Shown: piece after piece, positions 46,034-63,962 of the stretch
How the letters are laid out: every line of letters starts with the position of its first letter
Position numbering within the stretch: the first letter of the stretch is position 1
Assembly (NCBI GenBank): GCA_022824225.1
Contig: JAJEAH010000028.1
Coordinates: 1-64,000, forward strand
Length of the DNA: 64,000 nt
Source of the DNA: Chloroflexota bacterium
Lineage (GTDB): Bacteria; Chloroflexota; UBA11872; VXOZ01
Reading direction: 5' to 3'
Made by a program: the position numbers and the translations under genes
The notes under the pieces: model-generated
Databases searched by the model: none
What the model saw: the letters and a program-made list of their open reading frames with translations, nothing else
What the model was told of the DNA's origin: nothing

Positions 46034-47788
46034 CTAGAGCAGTTGCACCAGGTCCCGGCGCACGAAGAAGTAGAAGTCCTGCGAGCCGATGGGTTGGGGA
46101 AGCTGGCGGCTGACCAGCCAGCGCAGAAAGTTGCCGCGAGTCTCTGCGTTGAGGACGAAATCAAACGCGAACGTGAGACTCAGCTCGCGGTACAGCGTCT
46201 CGGGGAACCACCAGCGCAGCTTGTAGCGAAACGGCACGTAGTTGCCCAGGTGTTCTCGCGCAACGTCAAACTGGCTCGCGGTCACAATGACGAACGCCGC
46301 ATCTCCCGGATCGCCAATAGCGGGCAAGTAGGCGATCATGGTGTAATCGCGGAGATACCAGAAGAACGGCCACGAGTCTTCATTGTCGATGATGCCTACC
46401 GTTTCCGTGCCGCTGGCTAGCTTGCGGGAAATCTGCTCGATCTGGTCCGCGACGTAGGGCACGTCCGGGGTGGTTTGCACGTAAACGAGCGTATCCAGCG
46501 GTGTGTCGCCGTGGGAGAATGCCAGCGGCAAGCCCGTGTGCAGCGCATACACGCCGATGAATACGCAGAGCCCCACGGCAATTCGGTTCTGCCGGAGTCC
46601 GTCCGGTCCGGAGAACATCAACCCTAGGTAACGGGACACCAGGAGGATGCCCGGCAGCGATAGGTGCAGCACCAACCAGGGCATGCGTTCGCCGGCCACT
46701 GAGTAGAGAATGACCGCGGCCACGAACCAGTAGCACAGGAAAAGGTCGGTCAACGTGCCCCGGCGGGCCAAGGCCCACAGCGCCGGCACGGCAAATGCCG
46801 CTACGATCAGTTCGTAGAGCGGAACCTGCATGAAGTAGTACCAGATGGGCTGGTTGCCCCGGTTCACGCCGTGCTGCGCCAGCCAGTATTCCAGCGCTTT
46901 GGTCACGCCGGTGGCAAAGTCCTGGGGATAGGTGTAGAAGGCGGTAAAGAAGGTCACGAATATCACAAGGAATGTCACGACTCCCGCCAAGAGGAGCATG
47001 CGCTCGCGCCACAGGTCGGCCAGCGCGCTCTTCACCGATTCATGGCTGGGCAGCCGCTGGGCAAGGCCCGGTTGGATGAGCTCTTGCAGGAACCGTCCCG
47101 CGATAAAGGTCGCGACGATGGCCAACGTGATATAGGTGTTTTCCTTGGTAGCCAGGGAAAAACCCACTGCGCTCGCACCCAGATAGATGTACCAGCGCTG
47201 CCGCGTGTGCAGCCAGCCATAGAGCGCCAGCACGATGAGCATCGTCCACACCACAATGTATATGTCGTTGCGGGCAAAGCGTGAGAAGTAGAGCAGCGGG
47301 GGTGAAATGCCCATGAGAATCGCGGCCAAGACCATGCCGTTCCTGCCTAGGTACGGTTTGAGGGGGTAGACCAGCAGCACGGCCAGCACGCCAAAGAGCG
47401 CCGGTCCAAAGCGGGCTACCGCGTCGCTGACGCCGAATAGAAAGAACATGAACGCGGTCAAGTAGAACTGGAAGGGCCCGTGGAGAACGGGGTTGTAGCG
47501 ATAGTTGAATGAGCGGTAAATATCCCAGGAAAAGCGGGCGTGCATGCTCTCGTCATGGTGCAGCGCCCGCGCTCCCAGGTCCCAGAACCGGGTGAACGCT
47601 ACGAAGACGAGCACGGCGAGAAAGACCAGCGCCTGCCAGCGGCTGAGGCCAAATGGCGTTTCCGCGCGCAGCCAGGCCGAAACAGCCGCCCAGTGGGCGG
47701 TCACCGGCTCTTCAGGGGAAGAAACGGGCGGCGCCGGTCGTGACCGCGTTGGTTTGGACCGCCCGCCGCTCTCTTGCTTAGTTGACAT
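46034..47788 (-). CDS. Agl23-type (TIGR03663) membrane glycosyltransferase-fold protein
   Basis: The 584-residue GT-C-fold membrane protein has about 11 membrane segments after a Pro/Ser-rich cytoplasmic tail. In its first extracytoplasmic loop ALHHDESMHA holds the acidic pair Asp79-Glu80 used by GT-C enzymes. NPVLHGPFQFYLTAFMFFLFG and SRFARNDIYIVVWT follow the family pattern. The soluble C-terminal part contains NEDSWPFFWYLRDY. The family is called flippase-associated after the archaeal protein; here a role in glycosylating lipid carriers or surface proteins is inferred. Its ATG overlaps the upstream DUF2298 gene by 11 bases. Confidence 0.86.
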   Translation of the reverse strand: MSTKQESGGRSKPTRSRPAPPVSSPEEPVTAHWAAVSAWLRAETPFGLSRWQALVFLAVLVFVAFTRFWDLGARALHHDESMHARFSWDIYRSFNYRYNPVLHGPFQFYLTAFMFFLFGVSDAVARFGPALFGVLAVLLVYPLKPYLGRNGMVLAAILMGISPPLLYFSRFARNDIYIVVWTMLIVLALYGWLHTRQRWYIYLGASAVGFSLATKENTYITLAIVATFIAGRFLQELIQPGLAQRLPSHESVKSALADLWRERMLLLAGVVTFLVIFVTFFTAFYTYPQDFATGVTKALEYWLAQHGVNRGNQPIWYYFMQVPLYELIVAAFAVPALWALARRGTLTDLFLCYWFVAAVILYSVAGERMPWLVLHLSLPGILLVSRYLGLMFSGPDGLRQNRIAVGLCVFIGVYALHTGLPLAFSHGDTPLDTLVYVQTTPDVPYVADQIEQISRKLASGTETVGIIDNEDSWPFFWYLRDYTMIAYLPAIGDPGDAAFVIVTASQFDVAREHLGNYVPFRYKLRWWFPETLYRELSLTFAFDFVLNAETRGNFLRWLVSRQLPQPIGSQDFYFFVRRDLVQLL

Positions 47789-50174
47789 CGGCTTTGAGTA
47801 TGTATACGTCTCCGCTTTGGAACACTACGGGGAACCAGTCGAGCAGGTGACTGACATTCTCCCCGTAGAGCTGTCGTTCCCAGTCACCAACAAAGATATA
47901 GTCGGCGTCATACTTGCGCAAGAACGCCTCTGCTCCGTCCCGTGCCGCCGTAACGTAGAAGAACTGCAAGTCGTCTTCCCGCTCGAGCACCAACCCATAG
48001 TCATTGCGCCACAGGTTCTCATGTTGACGCCAGCCTAGCACCGTTTGCAAGCCCGTGAACGTGGAGACCCGGCTGTACTGGCTGTATTCTTGCCCGGTCG
48101 CCTCGATGACGACGCTGTCGGATGGCGCGTTTTCCCGTAGCCACGCGATGGCGGCAACCTCGTCGGCGTGGTCGCGGGCGTAGTAGAGGGTGCCGTCAAG
48201 AGTGGGCGGCTCGCGCTGGAAGGCGGCAAAGATGGGCGCGGTGAGCAGACTGTAGTAGAGCCCGCTGAGCACCAGCAGTATGGTGGCGAAGCGGAACAGC
48301 CAGCTCAACGGCCGCTGACGCGCGCGCAACCAAATCCTGACAAAGTAGACAATGAAGGCCGACACCGGGGCCAGCAGCGTCCAAATCTGGAAGTAGAGCT
48401 TGAACACCGTATTCATGCGCATGTTCGGCGGGCCGTAGAAGTCCTTGACGAATACCACGTCGCTAATGAGCACGAGCAGCGTCGCCACCCCGACCACGGC
48501 GCACACGAGGGGCAGCGGCTCCTGAAAGGACCGAAAATAGAGCAGCAGCGCGAATCCGAGCAAGAGGCTAAGCGCAAGGATGATGAGGGCTGCCGTATCG
48601 ACGAGCCGCGCGAGGGCGAACGTTATGCCAAACCAGGCGAGAATCGCGAAGACGTAGGGACTATGGAACCTCCAGCGCGCCGCGGGTTGCGGCTGCGCGT
48701 CCTGCGTGTCGGCCGGCGCTTCCGCGTCGTTCTGCGCGCGGCGTTGTTGCCGCGCTTTGCGGCCGCGGCCCGGCTGCGCCGCCGGTTCTTCAGGTTCCAC
48801 GAGCCGCTGCGCCGCGCGTATGCCAAGGATGGTTACGAAGACGCCCAACGGCACCAAAAAGATGCCGTGGACGGTAAAGAACTGGCCGAGATTCGTGCGG
48901 TACGGCACCAATCCAAGGCCCTGGGTCGGCGGGTTGAATGTGAAATAGAACGGCGCGTACAACACTACCGCTAGCACGCCGGTCGCGGCGAGCCACACAA
49001 GCGCGCTCTGCCACTCGCCCAGTTTGCCATTTACCTTGAGCGACAGGAACACGCAGACGGCCAACAGCAGGAAGTAGGTGGGGAAGTCCCAGGAATTCAG
49101 GAAGTACAGTCCCCCAAATACGATGGCGCTCAGCACAACCTTGCTCACTCTGGGCACAGTGAGCAGGGGCACGAGAGACCGCCACTGCCGCAGGAACGAG
49201 AGCGGCACTGCCGGATAGTCCGGCGCGGCGTACCAGGTGAAGGCGGTGAATACAGCCAACAGCGCAAACGGCAGAGCCATGACGTGGGGGTGCATGTCGC
49301 CCAGGATGAAGCTGAAGGCGGGAAACTCATTGATGGTGAAATCGAGCAGCGCTTCGCCTTCCACCCGGCTTACCACGCGAGAGGCATTCCAGCCCACGCC
49401 AAACCAGAAGCCTTGGCGCAGGATTTCAGGCTCGGTGAGCGCCTTCCATATGGTGAAGAGATTGCCAACAAAGAGGAGCAGGAAGACGGAAAAGAGGCCC
49501 GTGAGCGTACCCCGGCGCGGCTCGGCAGTCCCACCGGCGGCCTGAAAGCGCTTGACCAACGAATAGCCGATGCCATACGCGCCAAGGCCGCTCAACGCGA
49601 AGAACAGGGCCAGGGCAAGATTGTAGGTGATGGCCGAGGGTATGCCGGTAAGGCGGGTGAGGAAGGCGACGATCAGGTAGCCAAAATAGTAGTAGTTGAC
49701 CGAGAGGCCGGCCGCCCAGGCGTCATGGGGCGGCATGGCGCTCGACTGCAGGATGCTGTTGAGCAGCATGAAATCCATGAATTTCTCCGTGCCCAGGATC
49801 TCCGGCGCCCACTGCCGCAGCAGGGCGTACCCGCCGAGCAGCACGAGAAAGAGGATCTCAACCACGTAGACCTGGTGCCCCACGCTTTGCCGCCAGTCGT
49901 CAAGCCGCCAGCGGCAGCGCCGCACCGTCAACGCCGAGAGCGCGCCCAAGAGCACGAGAACGACGAGCAGCGCCCACAACGTGTTGGGCAAGATGCGCAA
50001 CGACATCAGGAGCCAGCCGGCAAAGCCGAAGAGCAGAATGCCGAAGGTCTTGGCAAAGGGATAGCCCCCCAGAGGCATCTTGCGGAAGAGGAGCCATGAC
50101 AGCGGCAACGTCACCAGGGTGATGACTTGCACGGCAAGCCACCAGAGGGCGATGTGACCGAGGACGCTCGCCAC
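47778..50174 (-). CDS. DUF2298 (TIGR03662-type) membrane protein
   Basis: This is a 798-residue polytopic protein with about 13 membrane segments. The blocks SVNYYYFGYLIVAFLTRLTG and GDMHPHVMALPFALLAV (near residue 295) are diagnostic for DUF2298. A Gln/Arg/Ala-rich insert (about residues 470-500) lies between membrane segments. The soluble C-terminal domain ends GDVYILKADVN. The gene is directly upstream of the Agl23-type gene with overlapping ends, so the two products probably work as one machine. The pairing is known from Chloroflexota, but the glycan is not. Confidence 0.88.
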   Translation of the reverse strand: MASVLGHIALWWLAVQVITLVTLPLSWLLFRKMPLGGYPFAKTFGILLFGFAGWLLMSLRILPNTLWALLVVLVLLGALSALTVRRCRWRLDDWRQSVGHQVYVVEILFLVLLGGYALLRQWAPEILGTEKFMDFMLLNSILQSSAMPPHDAWAAGLSVNYYYFGYLIVAFLTRLTGIPSAITYNLALALFFALSGLGAYGIGYSLVKRFQAAGGTAEPRRGTLTGLFSVFLLLFVGNLFTIWKALTEPEILRQGFWFGVGWNASRVVSRVEGEALLDFTINEFPAFSFILGDMHPHVMALPFALLAVFTAFTWYAAPDYPAVPLSFLRQWRSLVPLLTVPRVSKVVLSAIVFGGLYFLNSWDFPTYFLLLAVCVFLSLKVNGKLGEWQSALVWLAATGVLAVVLYAPFYFTFNPPTQGLGLVPYRTNLGQFFTVHGIFLVPLGVFVTILGIRAAQRLVEPEEPAAQPGRGRKARQQRRAQNDAEAPADTQDAQPQPAARWRFHSPYVFAILAWFGITFALARLVDTAALIILALSLLLGFALLLYFRSFQEPLPLVCAVVGVATLLVLISDVVFVKDFYGPPNMRMNTVFKLYFQIWTLLAPVSAFIVYFVRIWLRARQRPLSWLFRFATILLVLSGLYYSLLTAPIFAAFQREPPTLDGTLYYARDHADEVAAIAWLRENAPSDSVVIEATGQEYSQYSRVSTFTGLQTVLGWRQHENLWRNDYGLVLEREDDLQFFYVTAARDGAEAFLRKYDADYIFVGDWERQLYGENVSHLLDWFPVVFQSGDVYILKADVN

Positions 50175-50217
50175 GGTAGTTACACTCCCGGCCGTCGGTG
50201 CGGGGCTCCGCGTGGTC

Positions 50218-50856
50218 TCACAGCGTCCCTGCCACCCATGCGATGCCGCGCCGCAAGATGGTTGCCGCGCCGGGATACTGGAGCGCGGCGGTGTCGTGGC
50301 CGAGGAGATACGTACACACCCGCGTGTGGGGGTGCTCTACCGTCCACAGCAGCGGCTGGACCTCGCCGTTCAGCTTGGCGTGGGCGAGCACGTGGGCCTG
50401 AGGCGTGAGTTGCACGTTGGCGTAGAGCTCGTCGCGCACGGCGAAATCCACGAGACGGTGGGTTATCGGATGGACGGCGTCATCGACGTGCACGGTGAAC
50501 GGGCCGTACGGCGGGTGGTAGAAATCAGGCGCGGGCCAGCCGCCAATCAGGTCCGTGTAGGCTTGCCAGCCGCGAAAACTCAGCACGCCGGCATGGAGCA
50601 CCAGGAGCCCCTTGCCGCCGTGCGCCGCAGCCAACAATGCGGCTTCTCTGGATGCGGGCCAGCGGTCCTCTTTTGTGTTGAGGTAGAGCAGGATGACGTC
50701 GTAGCGGTCGATGAGGCCGGTCTCCAGCAGACCGGCGTCTTCACACAAGGTTACGGCCACGCCGCTGCTCTCTTCCAGGTGATCGGCAACGTGAGCGGCC
50801 ACGTCCCGGGGCCGGTGGGCGGGATTGGGTCCGCCGAGAAGCAGGACGTTCAACAT
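50218..50856 (-). CDS. ThuA-like domain protein
   Basis: The protein has a glutamine amidotransferase-like fold, 212 residues, related to trehalose-utilisation protein ThuA. VLLLGGPNPAH opens the fold, LLVLHAGVL marks the nucleophile-elbow region with Ala in place of Cys, DDAVHPITHRLVDFAVRDELY and GHDTAALQYPGAATILRRGI are the family blocks. ATG 50856 follows AGGAGG by 12 bases; an in-frame ATG at 50883 lacks a good site. ThuA family members act in disaccharide keto-sugar metabolism or are of unknown function. Confidence 0.85.
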   Translation of the reverse strand: MLNVLLLGGPNPAHRPRDVAAHVADHLEESSGVAVTLCEDAGLLETGLIDRYDVILLYLNTKEDRWPASREAALLAAAHGGKGLLVLHAGVLSFRGWQAYTDLIGGWPAPDFYHPPYGPFTVHVDDAVHPITHRLVDFAVRDELYANVQLTPQAHVLAHAKLNGEVQPLLWTVEHPHTRVCTYLLGHDTAALQYPGAATILRRGIAWVAGTL

Positions 50857-51074
50857 TTGCGCCGGTTGCCCTCCTGCTGGCATGGGCTACGCATCACTTA
50901 CTTCCCATCTTATACTCTTTGGCGGCGTCCTGCGCGCTTGCGTTCCGGCGATACGCCAAAGCGCGGCGCGCAGCATGAGAAGAATGCTGTGCAGAGCGAT
51001 AGAGAATGCCGACGTGCCGCTGCCGGGCATGCGCGGCGGCCAACGCGCCGCGCGAGCGCCTGGTTGGGATGCGC

Positions 51075-52382
51075 TTAAGTCGAGGCAGGCACGGCGGCCA
51101 CCGCATCAACGGCTGACAACGCGCCATCCAAGATTTCCAGCGCACGCTCGGCCTGAGTCTGGGTGATGACCAGCGGCGGCTGGAAACGAAGCACGTTGCC
51201 GTAGAACCCGCCGCAGCCAATGAGCAGGCCCGCTTGGCGGCATTCCTCTTGTACGCGCTTTGCTTCATCCGGCGCCGGCTCTTTGGTCTCCCTGTCGGTG
51301 ACCAATTCGATGCCGATCATGAGTCCTTTACCGCGCACGTCGCCAATAAGGGGATGGCGTTCGTACCAGGCGGACAGGACTGACAGAACGTGCTCTCCCA
51401 TCTGGCGGGTATATTCGGCAATTCGCTCGCGTTCCAGGAATTCTATCGTGGCGAGGGCTGCCGCGGCGGAAACCAAATTGCCGCCAAACGTGCTGAAGTG
51501 ATCGCCGGGGAGGAAGGACTCGCCAATCTCGCGGCGCGTAGTAAACGCGCTGAGCGGAAAGCCGTTGGCAATGCCTTTGGCCGAGGTGAGAATGTCCGGC
51601 TCGACGCCGATTTCTTCGCTAGCGAACATGGCGCCGGTGCGCCCGAAGCTGGTCTGCACTTCATCGGCGACGAAGAGTGCCTCGTTGCGTTCCAAGATGC
51701 GCTTCACTTTCGGGAAATACGCCGGCGGCGGCACGATAATGCCGCCCTCGCCCATTACCGGTTCGGCAATGAAGGCGGCGACGTTGCCGGAGGTCTGGGT
51801 ATCGAAGACGCGCTGCACTTCGTCGGCGCACGCCACGTCGCAGGCCGGATACGTGAGATGGAGCGGGCAGCGGTAGCAGTACGGCGCGGGCGCCATGGCC
51901 ACGCCGGAGGCCATGGGACCGGCGCGGCGCTTGCGGCGGGCGTTGCCCCCCAGGCTTAGCGTGCCCAACGTGCGGCCGTGGAAAGAGTATTGCAGCGAAA
52001 TGAACTCGCTGCGGTCGGTGTAGGCTTTGGCAATTCGGAGCGCGCCCTCCACGGCTTCGGCGCCGCTATTGCCAAAGAACGACTGCTCCAACCTGCCAGG
52101 CGTAATCTCCGCGAGCTTTTCGGCAAGGTCGGCCACGGCAGGCGCGTAATACAGGTAGCTGCCAACGTGGACGTGACGGTCCATCGCCGCCTTGGCCGCC
52201 CCCAGCACTTCGGGGTTGCTGTGTCCCGCATTCACCACCGAATAGCCCGCAAAACCGTCCAGGTAGGTTGTTCCGTCCGCGGCCGTCAGCGTGGCGCCCT
52301 CGGCATGGGAAACTTCTACCGGCGGCATCGCCGGCGCGTGACTGGTGACAACGTACTGTTCGTATTTCTGGAGCGTGTCCAT
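51075..52382 (-). CDS. Class III PLP aminotransferase (AGXT2/beta-alanine-pyruvate type)
   Basis: This 435-residue cytoplasmic transaminase transfers omega- or alpha-amino groups between amino and keto acids. FFGNSGAEAVEGALRIAK binds the cofactor phosphate. ADEVQTSFGRTG has Asp240, and Lys269 lies in TSAKGIANGFP. A Cys pattern YCYRCP with CDVAC (169-185) is shared with alanine-glyoxylate and beta-alanine members. ATG 52382 follows AGGGATAG. It lies on the minus strand before ThuA, with a 218-base gap. The amino donor is unknown. Confidence 0.9.
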   Translation of the reverse strand: MDTLQKYEQYVVTSHAPAMPPVEVSHAEGATLTAADGTTYLDGFAGYSVVNAGHSNPEVLGAAKAAMDRHVHVGSYLYYAPAVADLAEKLAEITPGRLEQSFFGNSGAEAVEGALRIAKAYTDRSEFISLQYSFHGRTLGTLSLGGNARRKRRAGPMASGVAMAPAPYCYRCPLHLTYPACDVACADEVQRVFDTQTSGNVAAFIAEPVMGEGGIIVPPPAYFPKVKRILERNEALFVADEVQTSFGRTGAMFASEEIGVEPDILTSAKGIANGFPLSAFTTRREIGESFLPGDHFSTFGGNLVSAAAALATIEFLERERIAEYTRQMGEHVLSVLSAWYERHPLIGDVRGKGLMIGIELVTDRETKEPAPDEAKRVQEECRQAGLLIGCGGFYGNVLRFQPPLVITQTQAERALEILDGALSAVDAVAAVPAST

Positions 52383-52919
52383 GTCTTCTATCCCTGCTTG
52401 CGTTCGTTCACTTCTTCGATGAGGAGACAGCACCTGAATCAGTCGCGTCTCCGCTTGCGGACTACGACGACTGAGAACCTAGGCCGCGCAAGGCAGCCGC
52501 TGAGCATTGCGCTGTGCAATGCTCGATGCCGCTAGTATAGCGGCAATCCAGGCGACATGCACCGGGGCCGTTTCTTTCTCTCATTCCACGGGATCTTGGC
52601 AGTGCTCTTGCCGTGCGTTCCAGGCAAGCCGAGCCAAGCTCCGCGGGCAGAATCCGACAGAGCGCTATTCGACGCCCGCTCTCAATGTGTCTCGGAAACA
52701 CCTATGGCAAGAGGGCGCGCGGGAGCCAAGCCAGTACGTAACAGTGGTGAATGCTCACCATGGCATACTAACGCGCGCCAGTGGGTGACACCCGCGTGTA
52801 TCGTTCCCATACTGCGACTGGGTGCCCGATTGCGTCTCCCTCGGTAGCAGGCTGTTTTGTTACGGCAGCCGCCCAAATAGCGGCGACCCTCGTCCTAGAC
52901 GAGACGTTCTGCGGGCGCG
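52383..52919. other. Intergenic stretch, no gene seen
   Basis: This is 537 bases between the minus-strand solute-binding gene stop and the aminotransferase start. Short frames on both strands do not resemble known proteins. No hairpin with a T-run and no match to the four repeat families was noticed. Confidence 0.4.
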
Positions 52920-54281
52920 CTAGACCCAGGCATCCAACACTTGCTGTACGTTGGTGTTCGCTTGCGTGAGCGCTTCCGGCAACGTGATCGTGCCCGCCAT
53001 GGCATCTGGAATGAACGCCGACTGCACACGCCGTATCTCGGAGCCGCCGAGGCCGGGATAGTTGAACTTGCGGTGCGGCATCTGCGCCACGATGAGTTCC
53101 CGGAAGGCATCGCCCTGCAAGTAACCGTCCGAGCCCGCCACAGCCGGACTGATGGGAACACGGTCGTACTGGTTTGAGAAGCGCAAATTGACGTCATCGG
53201 CGGCCATGAACTCGATCCAGGCCCAAGCGCCTTCCGGATTGTTCGCCAAGGTTGCCATGGTAAGCGTGTGGCAGCCGCCGTAATTCACGTCGCGTCCGCC
53301 TTCCGGCAGCGGCCACGGCGAATAGCCGTACTGCAAGTCGGGGGCATTCGTCTGGAACCAGCCGTTGCGGTTGGTGAACGTGGCAAAGAGATGGGTAACG
53401 CGGCCGTCGGCAAAATGCTGCGTGCTGGCAACACCTTCGCCCCGGAGTGTGGCGATGGCGTCCCAGCCGCCTTGCAAGTCGTGAACATTCTTCAACCAAG
53501 AGAGCGTCTGCAGGCCGAGTTCGTTATCCAGCGTCGCCGTGCGGCCATCGTCACTGACCACTTCCCCGCCAAGTTGCCAGAAGGGCATCAGCCAGAGATT
53601 CGTGCCGCCGCTGCCCCAGAAGGCGGGAAAACCGGCGCGTGTTAGGTCTTGTCCCTCCACCTTCGTCGTCCTGATGGTGGCATCCTCCAAGTTGTCCCAC
53701 GTTTGCGGCGGGTTCTCGGGATCGAGTCCGGCTTCCAGGTAGGCGTTCGCGTGGATGAAGATGACGCGCAAGTCCGGGGCCAACGGCGACCCGTAGATGT
53801 GCCCGTTCGGCTTGTGGGTCATGTCATTCATGAGGCTGGCCCAGATGTCTTCCGGGTTAAGTGTGGCGGAGGCCTTGAAGTAGCTGGTGAGCGGCTGGGA
53901 GACCTCGGTGACGCCAAGCTCTTGAACGCCAAAGGGCGTCACGTCACAGATGTCCGGCGGCGTGCCGGCCGCGGCGGCTGCCACATACTTGTCAAGACGT
54001 CCGGAAACCGCATCGGGCGCGATGGTGTAGCCCGGATTGGTCTCGGCAAACTCATCGCCGTACTGCTCATATGGATAGCTGCCGCGATGCCAAAACACGA
54101 CAGCCTGCGCTTCTTCGCTCGAGGCCGGCGCGTCTTCCGCTTGAGGGGCTTCACTTGGGGCTTGTTCGGACGGGGTTGCGGCGACTTGGCCGCACGCCGC
54201 CAGGAAGACACTGGAACCAAAGACCGAGGCGCCCAGGGCGGCAGTGGTGAGGAATCTTCGTCGCGTCGTGGTCGCTTGCAT
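52920..54281 (-). CDS. Extracellular solute-binding lipoprotein, family 1 (orphan, third copy)
   Basis: This 453-residue binding protein of a sugar-type ABC system is exported by a Tat-like TRRRFLT signal (residues 6-12) and ends the signal with a lipobox LAACG. The blocks LDPENPPQTWDNLED, PFWQLGGE and HDLQGGWDAIATL match the proteins at 10167 and 20581; it is closest to the second. ATG 54281 follows AAAAGGAG. No transporter membrane genes lie beside it. The mature protein starts with a Pro/Ala/Glu linker, then VVFWHRGSYPYE. Confidence 0.88.
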   Translation of the reverse strand: MQATTTRRRFLTTAALGASVFGSSVFLAACGQVAATPSEQAPSEAPQAEDAPASSEEAQAVVFWHRGSYPYEQYGDEFAETNPGYTIAPDAVSGRLDKYVAAAAAGTPPDICDVTPFGVQELGVTEVSQPLTSYFKASATLNPEDIWASLMNDMTHKPNGHIYGSPLAPDLRVIFIHANAYLEAGLDPENPPQTWDNLEDATIRTTKVEGQDLTRAGFPAFWGSGGTNLWLMPFWQLGGEVVSDDGRTATLDNELGLQTLSWLKNVHDLQGGWDAIATLRGEGVASTQHFADGRVTHLFATFTNRNGWFQTNAPDLQYGYSPWPLPEGGRDVNYGGCHTLTMATLANNPEGAWAWIEFMAADDVNLRFSNQYDRVPISPAVAGSDGYLQGDAFRELIVAQMPHRKFNYPGLGGSEIRRVQSAFIPDAMAGTITLPEALTQANTNVQQVLDAWV

Positions 54282-54417
54282 CGCGAACTCCTTTTACGCT
54301 ACGCCGTTTGACGACCTCCCATTCGCAACGGCTCTTGTGTCGACGCTGGCTGGAATCTGCCATGACTTCCGGCAAGCAAGGACATGCGGTATTGAAAGCG
54401 GCCGTTGCTCTTGTATG

Positions 54418-54447
54418 GTTATACCACATGTAGTACCAGTGTCACAA
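54418..54447 (-). promoter_or_regulatory. Candidate promoter of the third solute-binding gene
   Basis: On the minus strand TTGTGA (54447-54442), an 18-base spacer and TATAAC (54423-54418). The predicted leader is about 130 bases, long for an uncontrolled gene. Confidence 0.4.
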
Positions 54448-54505
54448 CGCGAACGAAAGGGAGTTGGCAGCTTCAAACTTGAGCTCCTTGCTAGGCTAGA
54501 TCACA

Positions 54506-54625
54506 TGTCATTCTGAGGAGTGCAGCGACGAAGAATCTAGCGCCGGGAGCAATTTAGATTCCGCGTCTTTGACGAAGTCAGCGAACCCTGTTCGACGCTG
54601 CGCTCGGAATGGCATGAGATCTAGC
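54506..54625. repeat. Family B dispersed repeat in the 54282-55084 spacer
   Basis: GTCATTCTGAGGAGTGCAGC, then GACGAAGAATCTAG, a 60-base interior and a GCTCGGAATGGCATGAGATC end. It is the most complete family B copy. Further on, GACTGCAC-AC-GTGCAGTC is a perfect 8-bp stem at 54821-54838. No gene was recognised in the remaining 400 bases. Confidence 0.7.
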
Positions 54626-55084
54626 CCAACAAGGTGATCAAGTCAAGAGCTACTGATTCCCCAGTGTCGGACTATTTGGGAGCGCGCGTTGCTTGTACAG
54701 AGCAAGAGACGGTAAGCAGGCTCTAGGCTGCGGTGGCGGAGATTGCGCGTCACCGAACAAGCCCTAGCGGGTGAGAAGTGCGGGGCGCCGTCGGCCCTTG
54801 GACCCCAAGATTCTACGAGGGACTGCACACGTGCAGTCGCTGCGGGCAGGCGGACGCAAGCGGCCGCAGGGCTAGGAGGTACTTCATCAGACTGGGTCGA
54901 GTTGTGGCCCAGGCCGTGGATAGGGGAAGGCGTTGCAGCCGGCGGCCGCTGCGAAAGGTGACGACCCGGGACACAGTGGGACGCCCGCTGGGCGAGCGCC
55001 GCTGCCCGCGCCGCGAAACTGCACGGAAGGCTAGGAACTAAGGCGAGCAAACATGACCACCGGGCGCGCCAAGCTCCGCCGGAC

Positions 55085-56215
55085 TCACTTGATCTTCCCC
55101 GAGTTTTCTTTCACCTCGTTGTACACCAAGCGCGGCGTGAATTCGGGGTCGATCATGCGGAAGTAGTACTCGGACGAGGTGGGGGGAATGTCGCCCACTT
55201 GCCGCAGGTACCAGATGCAGAAGACGCCGGCCCACGGCCAGTTGGAGCGGCCGTACTTCACGCCTTCCACCGTCCACTCCGCCTGCTGTTCTTCGGTGAC
55301 TCGCCGCCAGATCAACTGGTCCGCCGGCATGTCCTGGGGTGATGCGTTCCAGCCGTACTCGTTGAACCAGACGGCTTTATCCGTATCGCCGTTGCGTTCC
55401 ATCACCTCGCGGAGCAGTTCGACCCGGCGAAAGTTGAGCACATTGGGATCGGGCGGCGCGGTTGGCGGAAACTCAAGACCGTAGGCGTTGGCGGACATGA
55501 TGTCGAAGTAGTCGAACGCGCCGTGTTGGTACATTTGCTCGAGGTAGTCGAGCTCCACCATGGCGCGGGGCGAGCGTTCCAGGGTGATGGCGAGCGGCGC
55601 GGTCAGCACCTTGATGTTGGTGTCTACTTCCTTCAAGCTCTCGTAGGCGATGCGCAGGAAATCGACGTAGCCTTTGGGGTCGGGCTCGGCGCCCCATTCC
55701 CGCGCCAGATTGGGCTCGTTCCAGATTTGGTAGTGGGAGATGCGCCCTTTGTAGCGGTCTGCCAGAACGGCCATGAAGTCGCCGTAGTCTTCAAGGCGCG
55801 CCGGCGGAGCTTCGGGGCGGGCGTTTTCCCGCCGCGCCCACATTGGGCTGCGGTCGACCCGGGCAATGAGCTTTAGACCGAATTCGTCCGCAAGGTCCAC
55901 GATTTCGTCGAAACGTTGCCAGGCGGATACCTGCCAGACCTGATCGTAGTAGTTGCCCTTTTCCGATTGCTCCGCGAGTTCCCAGGGAAAATGCTGTTTG
56001 ATCCACACGATGCCGGCATCGCGGGCCATTTCGAACGTCTTCTCTTTCTTCCAGAATTCGACTTCCTTATGTAGAAACGCGTTTGCGCCCCAAGGATTGA
56101 CATTTGCCTCGGGAATCGTGCGCTCGATGTCGGTCTCGTTGTCACCGCTAAAGGGGCCGCAGGCCGCGGCAGCTACTGACGCGGCTGCCGCCGTTAGAAT
56201 GGTTCTCCGTTTCAT
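55085..56215 (-). CDS. Clan-A glycoside hydrolase-like lipoprotein
   Basis: The protein has 376 residues with a (beta/alpha)8 fold. The signal is short with KRR and a lipobox AAAAC (Cys19), so the enzyme is membrane-anchored outside the cell. IWNEPNLAREW carries the acid/base Glu167 and VWFNEYGWN the nucleophile Glu286, the spacing expected for clan GH-A (GH39/GH5-like). ATG 56215 overlaps the upstream gene as ATGA. The substrate is a beta-linked glycan by inference. It belongs to an operon with the TIM-barrel and NYN genes. Confidence 0.83.
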   Translation of the reverse strand: MKRRTILTAAAASVAAAACGPFSGDNETDIERTIPEANVNPWGANAFLHKEVEFWKKEKTFEMARDAGIVWIKQHFPWELAEQSEKGNYYDQVWQVSAWQRFDEIVDLADEFGLKLIARVDRSPMWARRENARPEAPPARLEDYGDFMAVLADRYKGRISHYQIWNEPNLAREWGAEPDPKGYVDFLRIAYESLKEVDTNIKVLTAPLAITLERSPRAMVELDYLEQMYQHGAFDYFDIMSANAYGLEFPPTAPPDPNVLNFRRVELLREVMERNGDTDKAVWFNEYGWNASPQDMPADQLIWRRVTEEQQAEWTVEGVKYGRSNWPWAGVFCIWYLRQVGDIPPTSSEYYFRMIDPEFTPRLVYNEVKENSGKIK

Positions 56216-57078
56216 GGGTCCGGCTGTCTCTCGCTTTCTTGCATGAACTCGCGGGTCATCTCCAGCGCTTCGCGCGGGTCGACCGTATCCGGCTGCAAAT
56301 CCAGGGCGTACCACTGGCACGTGTTGGCTCTGACAAGTCTACGCAGCGGCTGGCGTAAGTCCACGTCGCCGTGACCGGGCGGCACGAAAAGTCCGGCGGC
56401 CGCCGCGCTTGCCAGTCCGCGCATGCCGATGTGGACGTGCGCCGCCAGTTGCGCATCGAGATCTCGCACGTAGCAATAGCTAATGCGCGCGCCATGCCGC
56501 TCGATGATGGCCATGGGGTCTACCTCCATTAGTGCCAGGTGGCCCAAATCCAAGGCAAGTGTAAGCAACTCCGGATCGGTCTCCTCAAGGAAACGCTCCA
56601 TTTCCTCTTCAGTTTCAATGTAGGAGGCGAGGCGTGGGCGAAACGCGACTGCCACGCCCACCGAGCGGATCATGTCGGCAACGCTCTGCACCGTGTCTAC
56701 GAGGAGCGCGTGGTCGCTGGGAGACAGGGAATCGAAGCGCGTGGCATTGGGCCAACCGGCGGTAGAGAGGCGTTCATTCGATCCTGGCACGGAGAGTATG
56801 CAAAACTCCGGCTCCAGGATTGCCAGCCCTTCGAGCAACTCCGGCATGGTCGGCCGGTGCTCTACAGTTACGGCGCGGTCATACCAGGGTTCGTGCAGCG
56901 TGAGCGCGGAGAGGGCGACATCGGTTTCTGCCAGCCGGTCTTGCTGCGCCAGCAACATTGGCAGCGCGGCGGCGCGCTGTTCCCAGCCCAGCAACTGCGC
57001 GTCTTCACATGCCGTCAGGATTTCCTCGACCGGCGTATTCTTCCACACGCTAGGAGCGCAGGAAAGGGGCGGTCCCAC
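56212..57078 (-). CDS. Sugar phosphate isomerase/epimerase-like TIM-barrel protein
   Basis: The 288-residue protein is of the AP-endonuclease-2/xylose-isomerase-like fold. LTLHEPWYD, LALDLGHLALME and YCYVRDLD hold likely metal ligands, and FVPPGHGDVDL is the usual late block. The substrate may be a ketose or inositol derivative. GTG 57078 is three bases after the NYN gene's stop, and its own stop overlaps the glycoside hydrolase start, so all three genes form an operon. Confidence 0.78.
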   Translation of the reverse strand: MGPPLSCAPSVWKNTPVEEILTACEDAQLLGWEQRAAALPMLLAQQDRLAETDVALSALTLHEPWYDRAVTVEHRPTMPELLEGLAILEPEFCILSVPGSNERLSTAGWPNATRFDSLSPSDHALLVDTVQSVADMIRSVGVAVAFRPRLASYIETEEEMERFLEETDPELLTLALDLGHLALMEVDPMAIIERHGARISYCYVRDLDAQLAAHVHIGMRGLASAAAAGLFVPPGHGDVDLRQPLRRLVRANTCQWYALDLQPDTVDPREALEMTREFMQESERQPDP

Positions 57079-57081
57079 CGG

Positions 57082-57795
57082 CTAGTTCTCCTCGTAGCGC
57101 GGCTCGGCGCCGGCCTGGCGGTTGCGTGGGCGCTGGGTAGCGGGGGCCTCTCCATTGCCCGGGTAGCCGTTGTAGTCGGTGGGAGGAGCCGAAGTTTCGG
57201 AGGCTAGCGCTTTTTCTCTCGTACCGTTTTCATGACTGCCGTTCTGCGCCGCTTCCATTTGAATGACCGGCGCCAGTTCCGCAAGCTCCGTAAACGTATC
57301 CGCGGCGTCGATCAGGGCGATGGCCGTCATTTCAGCGAGACCTACGACCTCGACCCGCACGCCTTTGAACTGGACGGCTTCCACCAGGCGCACAAAGTCG
57401 CCGTCTCCCGATATCAAGACCGCGGTGTCGACGTGAGGCGCGATCGTGAGCATGTCGATGGCTAGTTCAACGTCCAGATTGGCCTTGGCTGTGCCATCAG
57501 GAAAGCGGCGGAGGTGCTTGGTCACAACTCGAAAGCCGTGGCGCTTCATCCAGGTCAGATAGCCTTGGGACTCCGGGCTCTGCGGGTCAACTCCCGCATA
57601 GGCGAATGAGCGCAGCAGTCGCCGACCCTTGGTAAGCACTTCTACCATGCGCGTATAGTCGACGCGGATATTGAGCTTTCGCGCGGCAAAGTAGAGATTG
57701 CCCAAGTCCATGAACAGGGCTACTCTCTCAAAGTACGGCGGAAACCCGAGCTGCTCGTCGTCAACGGGAGGCCGGTCGAGATGGTGGACACTCAT
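57082..57795 (-). CDS. NYN-domain (LabA-like) protein
   Basis: This PIN-like putative RNase has 237 residues. The acidic triad is in FMDLGNLY, KANLDVELAIDML and LISGDGDFVRLVEAVQ, as in LabA/DUF88 proteins. The C-terminal 55 residues are Asn/Gly/Glu-rich and probably disordered. ATG 57795 follows AAGG; the GTG at 57804 overlaps that site. It is the first gene of an operon with sugar-metabolism genes, which is an odd partnership. The function is inferred as RNA cleavage or binding. Confidence 0.84.
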   Translation of the reverse strand: MSVHHLDRPPVDDEQLGFPPYFERVALFMDLGNLYFAARKLNIRVDYTRMVEVLTKGRRLLRSFAYAGVDPQSPESQGYLTWMKRHGFRVVTKHLRRFPDGTAKANLDVELAIDMLTIAPHVDTAVLISGDGDFVRLVEAVQFKGVRVEVVGLAEMTAIALIDAADTFTELAELAPVIQMEAAQNGSHENGTREKALASETSAPPTDYNGYPGNGEAPATQRPRNRQAGAEPRYEEN

Positions 57796-58642
57796 GGGTT
57801 GCACCTTACGCTACGATTGATCGCTTTAGGGTTTTCTTGCCCAATGGGATGCGCCAAAGAAAATGACAGGCAGAGCTTGCTTTGCCGCCACTGTGGAGAA
57901 GTACCCTACACCTCAGGAGTAGAGAATCACACTGGCGGGACTTCAAGCTGCTAACGAATTACTGGGTTGGGCAGGAGTGCACGAGTCCGCTGCGGCAGCC
58001 CCCTCGCCGTCTATCTTACGCGTCTGCAGCCGGGTGTACTGTGAAATGCGGCTGCCAAGCGCGATGGGATGCCGCAAACTTTGTCGGCTGCGGGCCGGCT
58101 GCCCACACCCAATACAGGGATAGGGGAGTTACGGGCCACTGCCAACAAGGGAACACGGCTACGCAACGGTTGGGAAACACGTGGCGAGGCCAACGAGAGG
58201 TCTAGCAGGAATCTTGCCGAGGGTGCGCCCCAAATGGCAAGGAACGAGAACGAGGTTCTGACTGTTCGGCCATAGTATAGCAGAAAGGCAGACTAGATTG
58301 CCAATACCAGCCCTGCAAGTCTAAGCAATAGCTCGATGGCGCTTTGATCCTAGGAGGTTGCGCTGCCGTGGTTTGAGCTCAAGCGGCGTCGACTGCTTTA
58401 CCGTTTGGTTAAATGCAGTCCGTTGACGGGCGCAGCGGCTTGGGATTTACGTACAGAAGGTATACTGGTAAGTGCATGGGGTAGGAGGAGGCGCCGGCGG
58501 CAACCGGGCAAGAGGTATGTGGCAAGTTTGGGCGCTTCGATCGATGGGCGATCGTCAAATCGTGTGACGGGCGGCCGCTAGACATTGCGCAACTGAATTG
58601 GTTGTGCTGGCTAGAATCGGCCGCAAGTAAAGAGAATGCGCT
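57796..58642. other. Long intergenic stretch, no gene recognised
   Basis: This is 847 bases between divergent genes. A TATACT hexamer at 58461 lacks a spaced -35. TAGGAGG near 58351 is followed by GTG GTT TGA, so it is not a start. I checked by eye for tRNA, tmRNA, SRP and RNase P cores and saw none. A structured or regulatory RNA cannot be excluded. Confidence 0.4.
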
Positions 58643-60025
58643 ATGGAAAAAGTAGACCTCGTAGTCATTGGCACCGGACCCGCCGGCCACCGCGCCGCAA
58701 TCCAGGCGGCGAAACTTGGGAAGTCTGTGGTAGCCATAGAACGCCGGACCTTTGTAGGTGGCAATCTGGTCAATGCGGGCTCGATCCCCAGCAAGACTTT
58801 GCGGCAGGCGGTGCTGTACTTGACTGGCTTCTTCGAACGCAACATATACGGCATCACGTATTCGGTGAAGGAAAAGATCACGGTTTCCGACTTGATGTTT
58901 CGCTGCGAACACGTCATCAAGAACGAGACCGACGTGCTCGAAGTGCAACTTTCCCGCAACGACGTCAAGCCGCTCCATGGAGAGGCGCGCTTCGAAGGCC
59001 CGCACAACGTTGCCGTCACGCTGGAGGACGGGCGTGACGAAGTAATCGAAGCCGATTACGTCATCATCGCCACCGGCAGTCGTCCCGCGCGCTCGCCGAC
59101 GGTGCCCTTCAACGGGCAGACGATCTTTGATACCGACGGCGTCTACATGCTGAAGGAACTCCCAAAGCGACTAGCCATCGTGGGCGCGGGTGTGATCGGC
59201 GTCGAGTACGCGTGCATCTTCGCGGCGCTGGGCATAGACGTGACCCTCATCGAGCAACGTGCAGAGATGCTTGACTTTATAGACGAGGAGATCCGTGAGG
59301 CGCTCTCCTACCATATGCGGGAAGCAGGCATCACGTTTCGCTTTCGGGAGGAAGTGGCGGAAGTGAGCGATGAAGGCGATCGAATCGTGGCCCGCACCCG
59401 TAGCCGCAAGACTATTCTGGCCGATCACCTCCTCTACGCCGGTGGACGCCAGGGCAATACGGATATGCTCAATTTGGAGGCCGCAGGCCTGGAAGCCGAC
59501 CACCGCGGACGCCTTAAGGTAAATGAACAGTTTCAAACGTCCGCGCCCCACATCTATGCGTGCGGTGACGTTGTCGGCTTTCCCGCCTTGGCGGCTTCAT
59601 CCATGGAGCAGGGGAGACTTGCCGCCCGCCATGCCTTTGGCGAAGGGGGGTCATTCAACTCGCACCTCTTCCCCTATGGGATCTACACGATTCCGGAAAC
59701 GTCCATGGTGGGACGCAACGAGAAGGAACTTAGCGAAGCCGGCATCCCCTATGAGATTGGCGTCGCCCGCTACCGCGAGATTGCCCGCGGCCAGATCATT
59801 GGCGACCCAAACGGCTTGGTAAAGCTCTTGGTGCACGCGGACGAGCGCACGATTCTCGGCGTGCACGTCCTCGGCACCGGGGCGTCGGAATTGGTTCACA
59901 TCGGGCAAACGGCCATGGCGCTGAACGGAACGCTTGATTTCTTCGTGGACAACGTATTCAACTACCCCACACTTGCCGAGTGCTACAAGGTGGCCGCGCT
60001 GGACGCCTACAACAAGCTCTCCTGA
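58643..60025 (+). CDS. SthA-like soluble pyridine nucleotide transhydrogenase / flavoprotein
   Basis: The 460-residue FAD protein is of the pyridine nucleotide-disulphide family. The FAD motif VVIGTGPAGHRAA (8-20), the NAD(P) motif VGAGVIGVEYA and HIYACGDVVGFPALAA are intact. The place of the redox pair reads GGNLVNAGSIPSK (39-51), with no Cys, so it is not a dihydrolipoyl dehydrogenase or mercuric reductase. E. coli SthA keeps one Cys there. Hydride transfer between NADH and NADPH is the likely reaction. ATG 58643 has a weak AAGAGAA upstream. Confidence 0.86.
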   Translation: MEKVDLVVIGTGPAGHRAAIQAAKLGKSVVAIERRTFVGGNLVNAGSIPSKTLRQAVLYLTGFFERNIYGITYSVKEKITVSDLMFRCEHVIKNETDVLEVQLSRNDVKPLHGEARFEGPHNVAVTLEDGRDEVIEADYVIIATGSRPARSPTVPFNGQTIFDTDGVYMLKELPKRLAIVGAGVIGVEYACIFAALGIDVTLIEQRAEMLDFIDEEIREALSYHMREAGITFRFREEVAEVSDEGDRIVARTRSRKTILADHLLYAGGRQGNTDMLNLEAAGLEADHRGRLKVNEQFQTSAPHIYACGDVVGFPALAASSMEQGRLAARHAFGEGGSFNSHLFPYGIYTIPETSMVGRNEKELSEAGIPYEIGVARYREIARGQIIGDPNGLVKLLVHADERTILGVHVLGTGASELVHIGQTAMALNGTLDFFVDNVFNYPTLAECYKVAALDAYNKLS

Positions 60026-60299
60026 CCGGGGGAACGCAGGTCGTCGCTCGCGCTAGCCTATAGGGCGGGGCGAGCGTGCATTCCCGCGAGGCACAGTGCT
60101 CTTCGTCTAGTCCGCGCGACGCGGGCGCGCGACGCGGCGACTGCACCCTCTGGGAATCGCCGCACCGGGGCCACAGGGCCAGCTAGCATTTGGTACGTCA
60201 CCGCTATGTCCGCTTGCAATTCCTTGCCGCGGTCATGTGACCGGGATAGTGCCGGCAGCATGGCAAGCATGGCGTACGGCGACGGCCTGCGGGGCGACG

Positions 60300-63200
60300 C
60301 TACTCCTGCGGCAGGCTCTCGTCAACCAGAATGAACCGAGGCGCCAGCCGGACTGTCGGCTCCGCCCCCGAAGCGAAATCCAGCCAGGCCACTGGCAGGC
60401 TTTGGGCGCGCAGCGCATACCGGTAGAGCGTGAAATAGAGGACGTACGACTCATCGGGTTTTGCCGGAAGGGACACCTCCCGCGCCACGGTGGCCGCCTC
60501 GCCATTGATGGCGAGAGTTACTGCCAGCGAGTTGGCGTCCAGGGAAAACGAGTAGTGGTCGCCCGCATCGGGCGGCGTGTCCAGGAGAATCTGCCAGAGA
60601 CCCGCTCGGCCTGGGACGCCTTGGCTGTCACCATAGCCATAGATGGTCCGTTGTTTAACGAGTTCCCAAAAGAGCTGGTCCTCCAGCGGTTTCCCGCGCG
60701 TGCCAATGAAGTGCGCGTCCACGCGCAGCACGTCGCCCGCTAACATAGGCATGAGCAGCAGCGCCGGCACGCCGAAACGGGACTCGACCCCTGCCGGCGG
60801 TACCCTCTGGGCGCGCACCCACGCCGGGGCGGAGGATCGCAAAGTGATGCTAGCGAGACCTGGCGCATCCAAGGGTATGAGGTTGGCGCCCGGTAGCAGT
60901 GCGAACTCGCGGACATCAGCGCCGGCGGCTACGTCAAGCTGCGCCGCTTCCTCCACAAGCACCATCAAGAGCAGAGCAGAGGGCGCGACCTCTTCGTCCT
61001 CCGGCAGAGCCAAGCAAGCGAGGGCAAATTCAGTCCGGGTGTTGGCAGCCAGTTTCCGCATAGACGGCACAGCGGCGATCTCGCGGGTAGGACAATAGCC
61101 CTCCGCGAGTGCGTAGAGCTCAACGCCGAGGGCGCTCCAGACGGACCGCGAGCGCTGGAAGCCCCATGCCGATGGCATGTCCTGGGGCGTAAACGGCCAA
61201 TTGCGGGAGCGTTCCCCGGGCGGTTCCGTAATGAGAAAGGCGTAATCGTAGCGGTCGTCCAGTTGGGGCTCCACCAGCTCGACCCGCGTCCTGATATGCA
61301 CGTCGTGGGAATTGGCGCTGACCAGCCGCCGCTCCCGCAGCGTGTAGTTTATGGCCCAGCGCACGTCCTCGGGTATGGCCGGGGAGACATAGACCCTCGC
61401 GTCGGTGGGGATGATTGCCGGCAGATCGCGGAGCGCGCTGCGCGGCACGTCCGGCCGCTCGTCGTAGAATGCCGGTAGCACCTCGTACACGTGGTGCCAC
61501 GCCAAGCCCTCCTGCACATCCTCATTGGAGAACACAAGCGTGAAATAGCGCGGGTCATGCAAGAGCGCGTGGACCTCAGGCGGCGTATTGCGAAACCACC
61601 GCAGGTTGATCACGACGTGGGTGATGCCGTACTCCGCCATGGCGGTTGGCTCAAGCGCGTAGAGCGCGTCGTAGTATGTGGGAGCGGGAAAGTCGAAGTT
61701 GATATACGAAAGCTCATCGGTCTGTTTGTGGGGGGCAAAGCCCCGAATGAGCAACGGGACTTCCGGCAGTTGGTTGGTGAGCACGTGTGCCGTGGCAGGC
61801 AAGGACCGCAAGAACGCGCGCGCTTCCCCGCCCATGCGGAAGACATAGGCGCGCCCGCGGACGGGGTCAATACTGTCGAGCTGCCGCGTCGGGGGTGAGA
61901 GGGTCCAGTGGTCCTCGATGCGCTGGCCCAGCGTAACGGGGCGGCCGTTGTCCATGTTGCCTACGGCGACAGAGAGCGGCCCGGCAATGGTCAGGGCGGT
62001 GACTGCCAGCGCGAGCGCCCAGGCCGGGGCCGAACGTTGCCGTCGCCTCAGCCAGGCGAATACGCCGATGCCAAACAGGAGCGCCAGCGAGACCCAGCCG
62101 AAGCTGTGCATCCGGCCAACGTCACCCGAATACTGGTAGTCAACCAGGCGGGGTAGCAGGAGGCCCGCAACGCCCATGGCCGCCAGCCAGGTAAGCGTAT
62201 AGACGTGCTTGGAACGCACCGCCCAGACGAGCAAAAACGGCGCGGCAAGCACAGGCAAGCCGAGGGTAATGAGCCAGAGCGCCGCTGTAGCCAGAGCGAC
62301 AGTAGGCGACGGCAAATGGCTCTCAATACTGAACAGCCACGGGAAGGGCTGGAGCGCGAATGCCGCGCCGAGGCCGGCAGCGCCGGGAGGACGATTCAGG
62401 AGCGCCGTAGAAAAGACTCCGCCCTGCAAGAGCGCTATCAGGATGGCCGCAGCTCCGGCGGGCACATGATCGCGCAGTAGCCGCACGTCCCGCTTGGCCG
62501 CCGTCTGCCAGAGGACCGCCGTTGTCCAGCCGATGGCGCCCACGACGAACACTAAGGACTCGAGTAGCGCGACGCTGGCAAAGCACGCCCCCAGCAACAG
62601 CCATTGCGGCCAATTGGGCCTCGCGTGGGATTCGCCGGCCGCGCGGGTCGCCATATCTGACGCGATCACGGCGCAGCCAAGCAGTACGGCCCAACCGCTG
62701 AGGTAATGCGGACGAACAATGAAGAGCGGGTAGGCCTCGATTGCGCTCGGAGTCAAGCGGTAGAAGAGCCGGAGAAGCTCGTCGTATGCGGACGCGTTGG
62801 CGGGCGGCAACCACTCGAAGAGAATGAAGCGCAACGGCGCTATGAGAGAGAGCAGCCCTGCGCCGAAAGAGAAGAAGAGACCGGCAATGAGCCCAAACCG
62901 CGCGCTGCCCAGCACATGCGCCGCCAGAGCGGCGGCGGCGAGATAGGCGGCAGCCGCGGCTAGCGGCGTCAAGATGAAGAAGGCGATCGCCACATCCAAC
63001 TGACCAATGTGTGCGAGCAGGGCGGCGAGGAAGTCCACACCGTAGTGATACTCGGCATGGAGCGTCGGCGCGCCGGGCGCCATCACCGGAAAGTTGCCAA
63101 ACCTGATGGTGTGCGCCAGCCAGTAGTGCATGTGATAGTCGGAAGTCGTGAAAATGACGTAGTTGCCGACACTGAGCAAAAGCACGACCAGCCCCGCGGC

Positions 63201-63539
63201 GGCGACTATACCGACGTCGGGCCAGGATAGCGGCTCGCGGTGTTGCAGGTCGCGGCGCCGCAGGACCGCGAGCGCGATGGCGGCGGCAAGGACGGCGAGC
63301 AGGCCCCACGTAAACGCTCGCGGCGTGCCGAGCACGTAGGCCAGCAGGTTGCAGACCACGAGGGCGCTGGCTAGTCCGATAGGGAATGCCGCAGCCGCCG
63401 CGGTCAGCAGGGAGCGCACGCCAAAGAGAAAATACGTGAGCAACAGGCCGCTCAAAGCCATGGCGCCAAGCGCGGCGCCGGCGCGGGCCAAGTTGAGCGT
63501 CAGAGCCGGGTCAATGGTGATGTTCAAGATGGAGGACAC
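60300..63539 (-). CDS. Large GT-C-like polytopic membrane protein, 1079 residues
   Basis: The first 530 residues hold about 13 hydrophobic segments. The early loop FTTSDYHMHYWLAH followed by EYHYGVDFLAALL resembles DUF2298 and other GT-C membrane proteins, with Asp and His in the loop after segment 4. The remaining 550 residues are mainly soluble. They include VRWAINYTLRERR and a late beta-rich domain ending near PRFILVDESLPQE. The start is GTG 63539. It could be a glycosyltransferase or glycan-handling protein working with the 46-50 kb pair. No family name is certain. Confidence 0.7.
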   Translation of the reverse strand: MSSILNITIDPALTLNLARAGAALGAMALSGLLLTYFLFGVRSLLTAAAAAFPIGLASALVVCNLLAYVLGTPRAFTWGLLAVLAAAIALAVLRRRDLQHREPLSWPDVGIVAAAGLVVLLLSVGNYVIFTTSDYHMHYWLAHTIRFGNFPVMAPGAPTLHAEYHYGVDFLAALLAHIGQLDVAIAFFILTPLAAAAAYLAAAALAAHVLGSARFGLIAGLFFSFGAGLLSLIAPLRFILFEWLPPANASAYDELLRLFYRLTPSAIEAYPLFIVRPHYLSGWAVLLGCAVIASDMATRAAGESHARPNWPQWLLLGACFASVALLESLVFVVGAIGWTTAVLWQTAAKRDVRLLRDHVPAGAAAILIALLQGGVFSTALLNRPPGAAGLGAAFALQPFPWLFSIESHLPSPTVALATAALWLITLGLPVLAAPFLLVWAVRSKHVYTLTWLAAMGVAGLLLPRLVDYQYSGDVGRMHSFGWVSLALLFGIGVFAWLRRRQRSAPAWALALAVTALTIAGPLSVAVGNMDNGRPVTLGQRIEDHWTLSPPTRQLDSIDPVRGRAYVFRMGGEARAFLRSLPATAHVLTNQLPEVPLLIRGFAPHKQTDELSYINFDFPAPTYYDALYALEPTAMAEYGITHVVINLRWFRNTPPEVHALLHDPRYFTLVFSNEDVQEGLAWHHVYEVLPAFYDERPDVPRSALRDLPAIIPTDARVYVSPAIPEDVRWAINYTLRERRLVSANSHDVHIRTRVELVEPQLDDRYDYAFLITEPPGERSRNWPFTPQDMPSAWGFQRSRSVWSALGVELYALAEGYCPTREIAAVPSMRKLAANTRTEFALACLALPEDEEVAPSALLLMVLVEEAAQLDVAAGADVREFALLPGANLIPLDAPGLASITLRSSAPAWVRAQRVPPAGVESRFGVPALLLMPMLAGDVLRVDAHFIGTRGKPLEDQLFWELVKQRTIYGYGDSQGVPGRAGLWQILLDTPPDAGDHYSFSLDANSLAVTLAINGEAATVAREVSLPAKPDESYVLYFTLYRYALRAQSLPVAWLDFASGAEPTVRLAPRFILVDESLPQE

Positions 63540-63809
63540 GGAGCGGCGCTTTTCCCCAATGAGGTTCGTGTGAGGATGTCCTAACTCTTCACTGTTTATC
63601 TGTGAGGGAAGTCTGTCCGTCTGTGGCAGGGCCTAATTCGGTTCAGTCAACAACGACGCGAATGGTCTTGGAATTGTCCTTCTGCGGCAGACGCTAGTAT
63701 CAATAGACCTGCCCAGGGCAGACTTGCTGCGTCGGGTAGGTCAATTGTCCGGGAAAAGTAGATTTTCCTATGGCTCTAGAAACGCGAGTGTCAACAAATC
63801 AGCTACTTT

Positions 63810-63962
63810 CGGCAAAGTCAAGCGCTCAGCAAAGTCGAGCGCTCAGCAGGGCCACACACCCGGCAAGGCCATGCGTTCAGCAAGGCCTTGCACCCGGCAA
63901 GGCCATACGCTCAGCAAGGCCATACACCCGGCAAGGCCATACTCTCGGCAACGTCATGCTCT
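63810..63962. repeat. 17-bp tandem array, nine units
   Basis: Nine consecutive 17-base units of CRGCAARGYCAWRCRCY type (for example CGGCAAGGCCATACGCT) run without gaps. Units beginning CAG and CGG and ending GCT or ACC alternate in part, giving a 34-base sub-period. It sits in the 63540-64000 gap, 270 bases upstream of the membrane protein's start. The frame open across it is not conserved between units. Confidence 0.85.

Follow-up and report, generated by a model that had tools for sequence, protein, structure and literature searches.

A predicted GT-C glycosyltransferase family of Chloroflexota, distantly related to DUF2298 and found in tandem arrays

Described relatives and the locus

The enzymes of the GT-C fold carry in their first outer loop an acidic residue that is catalytic or metal-binding. 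Among them, AftA is a polysaccharide arabinosyltransferase, and the OSTs are marked by the WWDxG motif. Two types of large membrane protein from Chloroflexota belong to this discussion as well. One is DUF2298 (PF10060; TIGR03662, 'Chlor_Arch_YYY'), which exceeds its cut-off in 102 of 151 genomes of the phylum, and the other is the Agl23 type (TIGR03663), labelled by NCBIfam as 'flippase activity-associated'. The name 'Chlor_Arch_YYY' was not found in our literature search, and an excerpt of PMC8756737 merely names DUF2298 beside a PMT2/PA14 protein.

Here we analysed a stretch of 64,000 nucleotides (positions 1 to 64,000 of contig JAJEAH010000028.1 from a Chloroflexota bacterium), which we call the window. 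It encodes both of these proteins and, about 10 kb away, a third membrane protein of 1079 residues. The features of interest are the following.

46034..47788, minus strand: Agl23-type (TIGR03663) / PMT_2 membrane protein of 584 residues with an HDESMH loop (Pfam and NCBIfam)
47778..50174, minus strand: DUF2298 / TIGR03662 membrane protein of 798 residues with an NYYYFGY loop (Pfam and NCBIfam)
47778..47788, minus strand: 11-bp overlap of these two genes, kept across the genus
52920-54281, minus strand: gene for a sugar-type solute-binding protein
55085-56320, minus strand: GH39-like lipoprotein frame, GH39 score under the Pfam cut-off
58643..60025, plus strand: Si-specific NAD(P)+ transhydrogenase gene, left border of the variable island, kept in four of four congeners
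60026..64000: window part of the variable island, which runs from the end of the transhydrogenase gene to about 71726 on the contig
60300..63539, minus strand: GT-C-like membrane protein of 1079 residues, copy 1 of a three-gene tandem array
63027..63140, minus strand: its first extracytoplasmic loop, residues 134-171 (D134-x3-H138...P151...Y164-H165-Y166-G167)
64503-67733 on the contig (G000:C30), past the right edge of the window: array copy 2
68376-71585 on the contig (G000:C30), past the right edge of the window: array copy 3

The three membrane-protein frames named in the original prediction are indeed present, all on the minus strand, and the first two are well classified. The product of 46034-47788 passes TIGR03663 'Agl23' (298.4 bits, cut-off 126.25) and also matches Pfam PMT_2, and the product of 47778-50174 passes both TIGR03662 (509.5 bits, cut-off 300.25) and PF10060 (368.9 bits, cut-off 27.8). 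The predicted overlap of their genes is real: it measures 11 bp in all four congeneric loci (L116, L114, L118 and L120, the window's own counted) and 4 bp in L130, a more distant member of the class. The two genes are adjacent in 14 of the 18 class genomes sampled, the remaining four being undecidable from the listed coordinates. We regard the pair as a separate conserved two-gene unit, probably of GT-C enzymes as well. For the Agl23-type protein this assignment is supported by the PMT_2 and TIGR03663 matches, and for the DUF2298 protein by its profile kinship with the family of the 1079-residue protein. The DUF2298 and Agl23 profiles show no detectable relation to each other (probability 15.8%, reversed controls up to 5.4%). 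A second DUF2298 protein is encoded elsewhere in the same genome (G000:C27:14361-15911, plus strand, with a long open frame of 1468 residues), and larger DUF2298 forms of 1400-2700 residues, some with two DUF2298 regions, occur throughout the phylum.

Kinship and predicted fold of the 1079-residue protein

No Pfam or NCBIfam family matches the 1079-residue protein above cut-off, and the PDB sequence search with all three membrane proteins returned chance matches alone. The likeness of its early loop (EYHYGVDFL, residues 163-171) to that of DUF2298, which had been noticed by inspection, goes beyond chance. We compared a profile of 13 family members (13 of the 30 loci L003-L032, with the window standing in for L003) with one of 28 DUF2298 sequences (27 of 31 stretches plus the window; three near-copies of L081 and one truncated sequence were left out). 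The two are collinear over 631 columns with an E-value of 1.1e-15 and a probability of 98.6%, and their FPPxxPW and Y(H/Y)YG loops are aligned. A profile of just the window protein and its two nearest copies reached E 4.5e-9 against DUF2298, while the controls failed: reversed DUF2298 profiles gave probabilities of 0.8-6.6% and ten block-shuffled profiles 0.3-3.2%. TIGR03662 matches 5 of 41 family members weakly (E <= 1, best 5.5e-7) and PF10060 matches none of the 41; this set holds 40 of 48 family loci and the window, eight loci with frames of 850 residues or fewer being left out. Since the relation is seen by profile only and no curated cut-off is reached, we do not file the protein under DUF2298, and judging from these comparisons its family is a distant relative, not a member. 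It shares with DUF2298 the N-terminal helices, the FPPxxPW and Y(Y/H)YxG loop and a late R-containing motif, but differs from it by a C-terminal beta-sandwich past the aligned part and by the formation of arrays.

By profile, the Agl23 type was rejected as a relative of the family. By eye, both are large membrane proteins whose first outer loop has a D-x3-H (D79ESMH83 in the Agl23-type protein, D134YHMH138 in the 1079-residue protein); however, TIGR03663 does not match the 1079-residue protein and the profile comparison reached a probability of at most 10% (reversed controls at most 2.4%).

The AlphaFold model of the window protein, built with 40 distant relatives, is weak to fair (pLDDT 59, pTM 0.61). 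Foldseek found nothing for it in the PDB at E <= 0.001, the best match being yeast STT3 at 9.2e-3, and in VIA-align the rows 1-39 were all GT-C enzymes, the first unrelated row having a Z of 5.8. A better model was obtained for L041, a family member 24% identical to the window protein (pLDDT 85.9, pTM 0.87). Its best Foldseek match is AftA (E 4.2e-5, prob 1.00). Its VIA-align rows 1-32 are all GT-C with Z from 13.3 to 8.6 and a first unrelated row at 6.0, although the tool itself cautions that, for helical proteins, general arrangement may account for a Z of about 13. The enzymes matched are AftA, OST/AglB/PglB, PMT, ArnT, AftD, ALG9/12, DPY19, PimE and EmbB, and the match extends from the helices through the first outer globular region as far as residue 661. 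Residues 547-698 align with the soluble domain of STT3 over 105 residues (Z 7.6), and AftA matches about as well. The C-terminal beta-sandwich (about residues 780-925) has weak matches to many sandwiches (Z about 5-6), the carbohydrate-binding domain of Wzt included. The GT-C assignment proposed for the 1079-residue protein is thus supported by structure prediction, whose top PDB matches are GT-C enzymes only, and the models indicate a GT-C-like protein. Its predicted helices and first outer domain are like those of AftA, STT3/AglB/PglB, PMT, ArnT, AftD and Emb, and the acidic residue of the first outer loop is shared as well; the sequence, in contrast, is only 7-14% identical to the GT-C structures in the VIA rows.

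Several residues (window numbering) are conserved in two sets that overlap in origin, 46 array genes and the 41 alignment rows. An acidic residue stands at position 134 in 44 of 46 and in all 41, H138 in 41 of 46 and 40 of 41, H165 in 45 of 46 and all 41, and R476 and D624 are found throughout both sets. In L041 the counterparts of D134 and H138 are D124 and H128. D/E134 is presumably the equivalent of the catalytic Asp of known GT-C enzymes. As the outer-loop acid is conserved, and such an acid is catalytic or metal-binding in GT-C enzymes, most copies look capable of catalysis; the acid is missing in two of the 46 array genes and His138 in five.

Tandem arrays and a variable island

Within the class, the 13-member profile has matches in 27 of 41 genomes, and the single window protein as query finds matches in 29 of 400 genomes of the phylum. 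All 48 family loci on named contigs come from Chloroflexi/Chloroflexota MAGs, and several of these bins are presumably of marine sponge origin, going by their isolate names. Related Chloroflexota carry the genes in head-to-tail arrays of 7-12. The ten regions that were mapped had been picked for having profile matches, which makes their array sizes a non-random sample, and frames were called by a simple longest-ORF script, with no gene finder. The arrays mapped include the following.

G109:C2:13995-50594: 12 genes, with one 513-residue membrane-protein frame interposed
G149:C24: 8 genes
G133:C8: 7 genes
G085:C3: 5 and 6 genes in opposite orientation

The interposed 513-residue protein (G109:C2:25690-27231, minus strand) has no Pfam match, is not matched by the family profile, and is also found in or near the arrays of L043, L062 and L074.

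Adjacent copies in arrays are 40.7-74.6% identical; in the window's array the values are 49.4% for 60300/64503 and 67.4% for 64503/68376. In a tree of 46 genes (two genes split across two frames were left out) cross-species orthologues are intermixed with genome-specific clusters, as expected under birth and death of copies. The Ka/Ks values of 11 chosen close pairs from this set are 0.19-0.34 and similar for membrane part and tail, which implies that the copies are maintained by selection; some family copies are broken. We count about 11-13 intact copies in each of G085, G101 and G109, and two in G023. Profile counts of at least 20 per genome are inflated because of split matches and broken copies. 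The intergenic gaps beside several recent copies look alike in one array inspected by eye. Degenerate short repeats, variants of CAGCAAGGCCATAC, lie in the gap that separates copy 1 from copy 2 of the window's array (L003:4990-5160, about 63.8-64.0 kb on the contig). The plasmid search gave no match. The arrays did not turn up in the literature that we found, that on sponge Chloroflexota included, most subscription papers being outside this coverage; an excerpt of PMC6306507 names GT2, GT4 and GT83 as the commonest GT families and leaves arrays unmentioned.

The array of the window's genome occupies a variable site. Its three copies are flanked on one side by the transhydrogenase gene (58643-60025) and on the other by a gene for a 258-residue protein, followed by one for a transglutaminase-domain protein. 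Across four congeners the copy number at this site is 0, 0, 1 and 3: G117 has one copy, and in G033 and G077 the transhydrogenase gene directly adjoins the 258-residue gene, with the flanking block kept on both sides. In two other members of the genus, G157 and G301 (the latter 69% complete), the 13-member profile detected no copy at this site or elsewhere.

The genes for ThuA, an aminotransferase, an IolE-like TIM barrel, the GH39-like protein, NYN and the transhydrogenase form a block conserved in four of four genomes of the genus, in which no glycan-assembly genes are obvious. The glycoside hydrolase lipoprotein, TIM-barrel and ThuA genes share a strand, as had been claimed, and the GH39 assignment falls below threshold (17.5 bits against a Pfam cut-off of 26). 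The start of the GH39-like frame is probably an internal ATG at 56215 (MKRRTILTAAAASVAAAACG, with a lipobox), which would replace the long overlap of the called frames by one of 4 bp with the IolE-like gene. The solute-binding protein gene lies within the block in the window's genome and is not at the same place in G033, G077 or G117.

Proposed function and its rivals

The original prediction considered it plausible that the three membrane proteins and their neighbours form a surface-glycan system, and only a part of this holds. The GT-C-like fold is supported by model and profile, and the pairing of the Agl23 and DUF2298 genes is conserved in the class; the linkage of the 1079-residue gene to them is not. 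The genes do share a strand within 17.5 kb, all are GT-C-like, and their order is kept in G117. However, two of four congeners retain the pair and the block without a family gene at the site, and none of the 48 family loci encodes Agl23 or DUF2298 in its flanks (tblastn 1e-5, up to 10 kb per side and less at contig ends). We therefore rejected a single system, and a co-functioning locus of the three genes is very improbable. The same flanks hold no relatives of the window's ThuA, solute-binding, GH, TIM, NYN or transhydrogenase proteins (tblastn 1e-5), and a class-III aminotransferase is found in those of seven loci. Among the 35 of 48 loci whose array neighbours were compared, a DUF3604 protein occurs in eight, a 666-residue protein, taken as acetyl-CoA synthetase from its G085 counterpart, in eight, mreB/mreC in five and pbp2/rodA in four, the last two all at one syntenic site; sulfatases are also among the commonest neighbours. 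Such neighbours are compatible with an envelope role but are no proof of one. Beside the arrays we saw no conserved cluster of polysaccharide genes.

We consider it likely that the 1079-residue protein is a glycosyltransferase of GT-C fold from an uncatalogued family, distantly akin to DUF2298 and diversified by tandem duplication and loss. The family would most likely comprise lipid-phosphosugar-dependent enzymes acting outside the membrane, which probably build or vary cell-surface sugars. In the mechanism that we propose, the first outer loop of a core of about 13 helices would carry D134 and His138, and a polyprenyl-phosphate sugar would be bound in the membrane cavity. The OST-like domain and the C-terminal beta-sandwich may lie outside the membrane and hold the acceptor. 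D134, with H138, would then act at the outer face, so that the sugar is passed from its polyprenyl-phosphate carrier to an outside acceptor, either a surface polysaccharide or a protein. The paralogues may differ in donor or acceptor, and their duplication and loss at few chromosomal sites would make strains or species differ in the copies they carry. It is possible, and we offer it tentatively, that this amounts to a glycan-diversification system, in which Chloroflexota, probably host-associated, deploy up to twelve tandem GT-C enzymes, each with a donor or acceptor preference of its own, and change their coat as copies arise and are lost at fixed chromosomal sites.

One could argue that these are protein glycosyltransferases, similar to OSTs or O-mannosyltransferases, which place glycans onto exported proteins and choose the acceptor of each paralogue through its tail. 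Indeed, chains of STT3/AglB/PglB and of PMT rank among the best structural matches, and the alignment extends into the OST globular domain at residues 547-698. However, unlike the OSTs, the family lacks WWDxG (0 of 48 proteins tested), by which we rejected it as an OST by motif, and AftA comes first in both VIA searches and in the L041 Foldseek search, tied with OSTs within one Z unit. Protein glycosylation thus appears doubtful to us. It could also be that the proteins are non-catalytic sensors of sugars or lipids, flippase-associated proteins or scaffolds, amplified for another reason: the fold by itself is no proof of activity, the Agl23 label speaks of flippases, and a few copies have no acidic residue. 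That is unlikely, given that the acid is kept in nearly all sequences, that H165, R476 and D624 are almost invariant, and that the copies are under purifying selection.

The preferred reading, a surface-acting GT-C glycosyltransferase family, places a sequence family unnamed in Pfam and NCBIfam on a known fold. GT-C enzymes determine the sugars on the cell, and glycan annotation is blind to a family that has no profile in Pfam or NCBIfam and yet fills about 36 kb of one related Chloroflexota contig with head-to-tail copies. The predicted GT-C fold also hands a likely fold to DUF2298, a widespread domain of unknown function. Should the copies differ in specificity, this would account for surface variation in the bacteria that bear the arrays, and the GT-C paralogues, about 950 residues long, would serve as a natural panel for finding the determinants of donor and acceptor choice.
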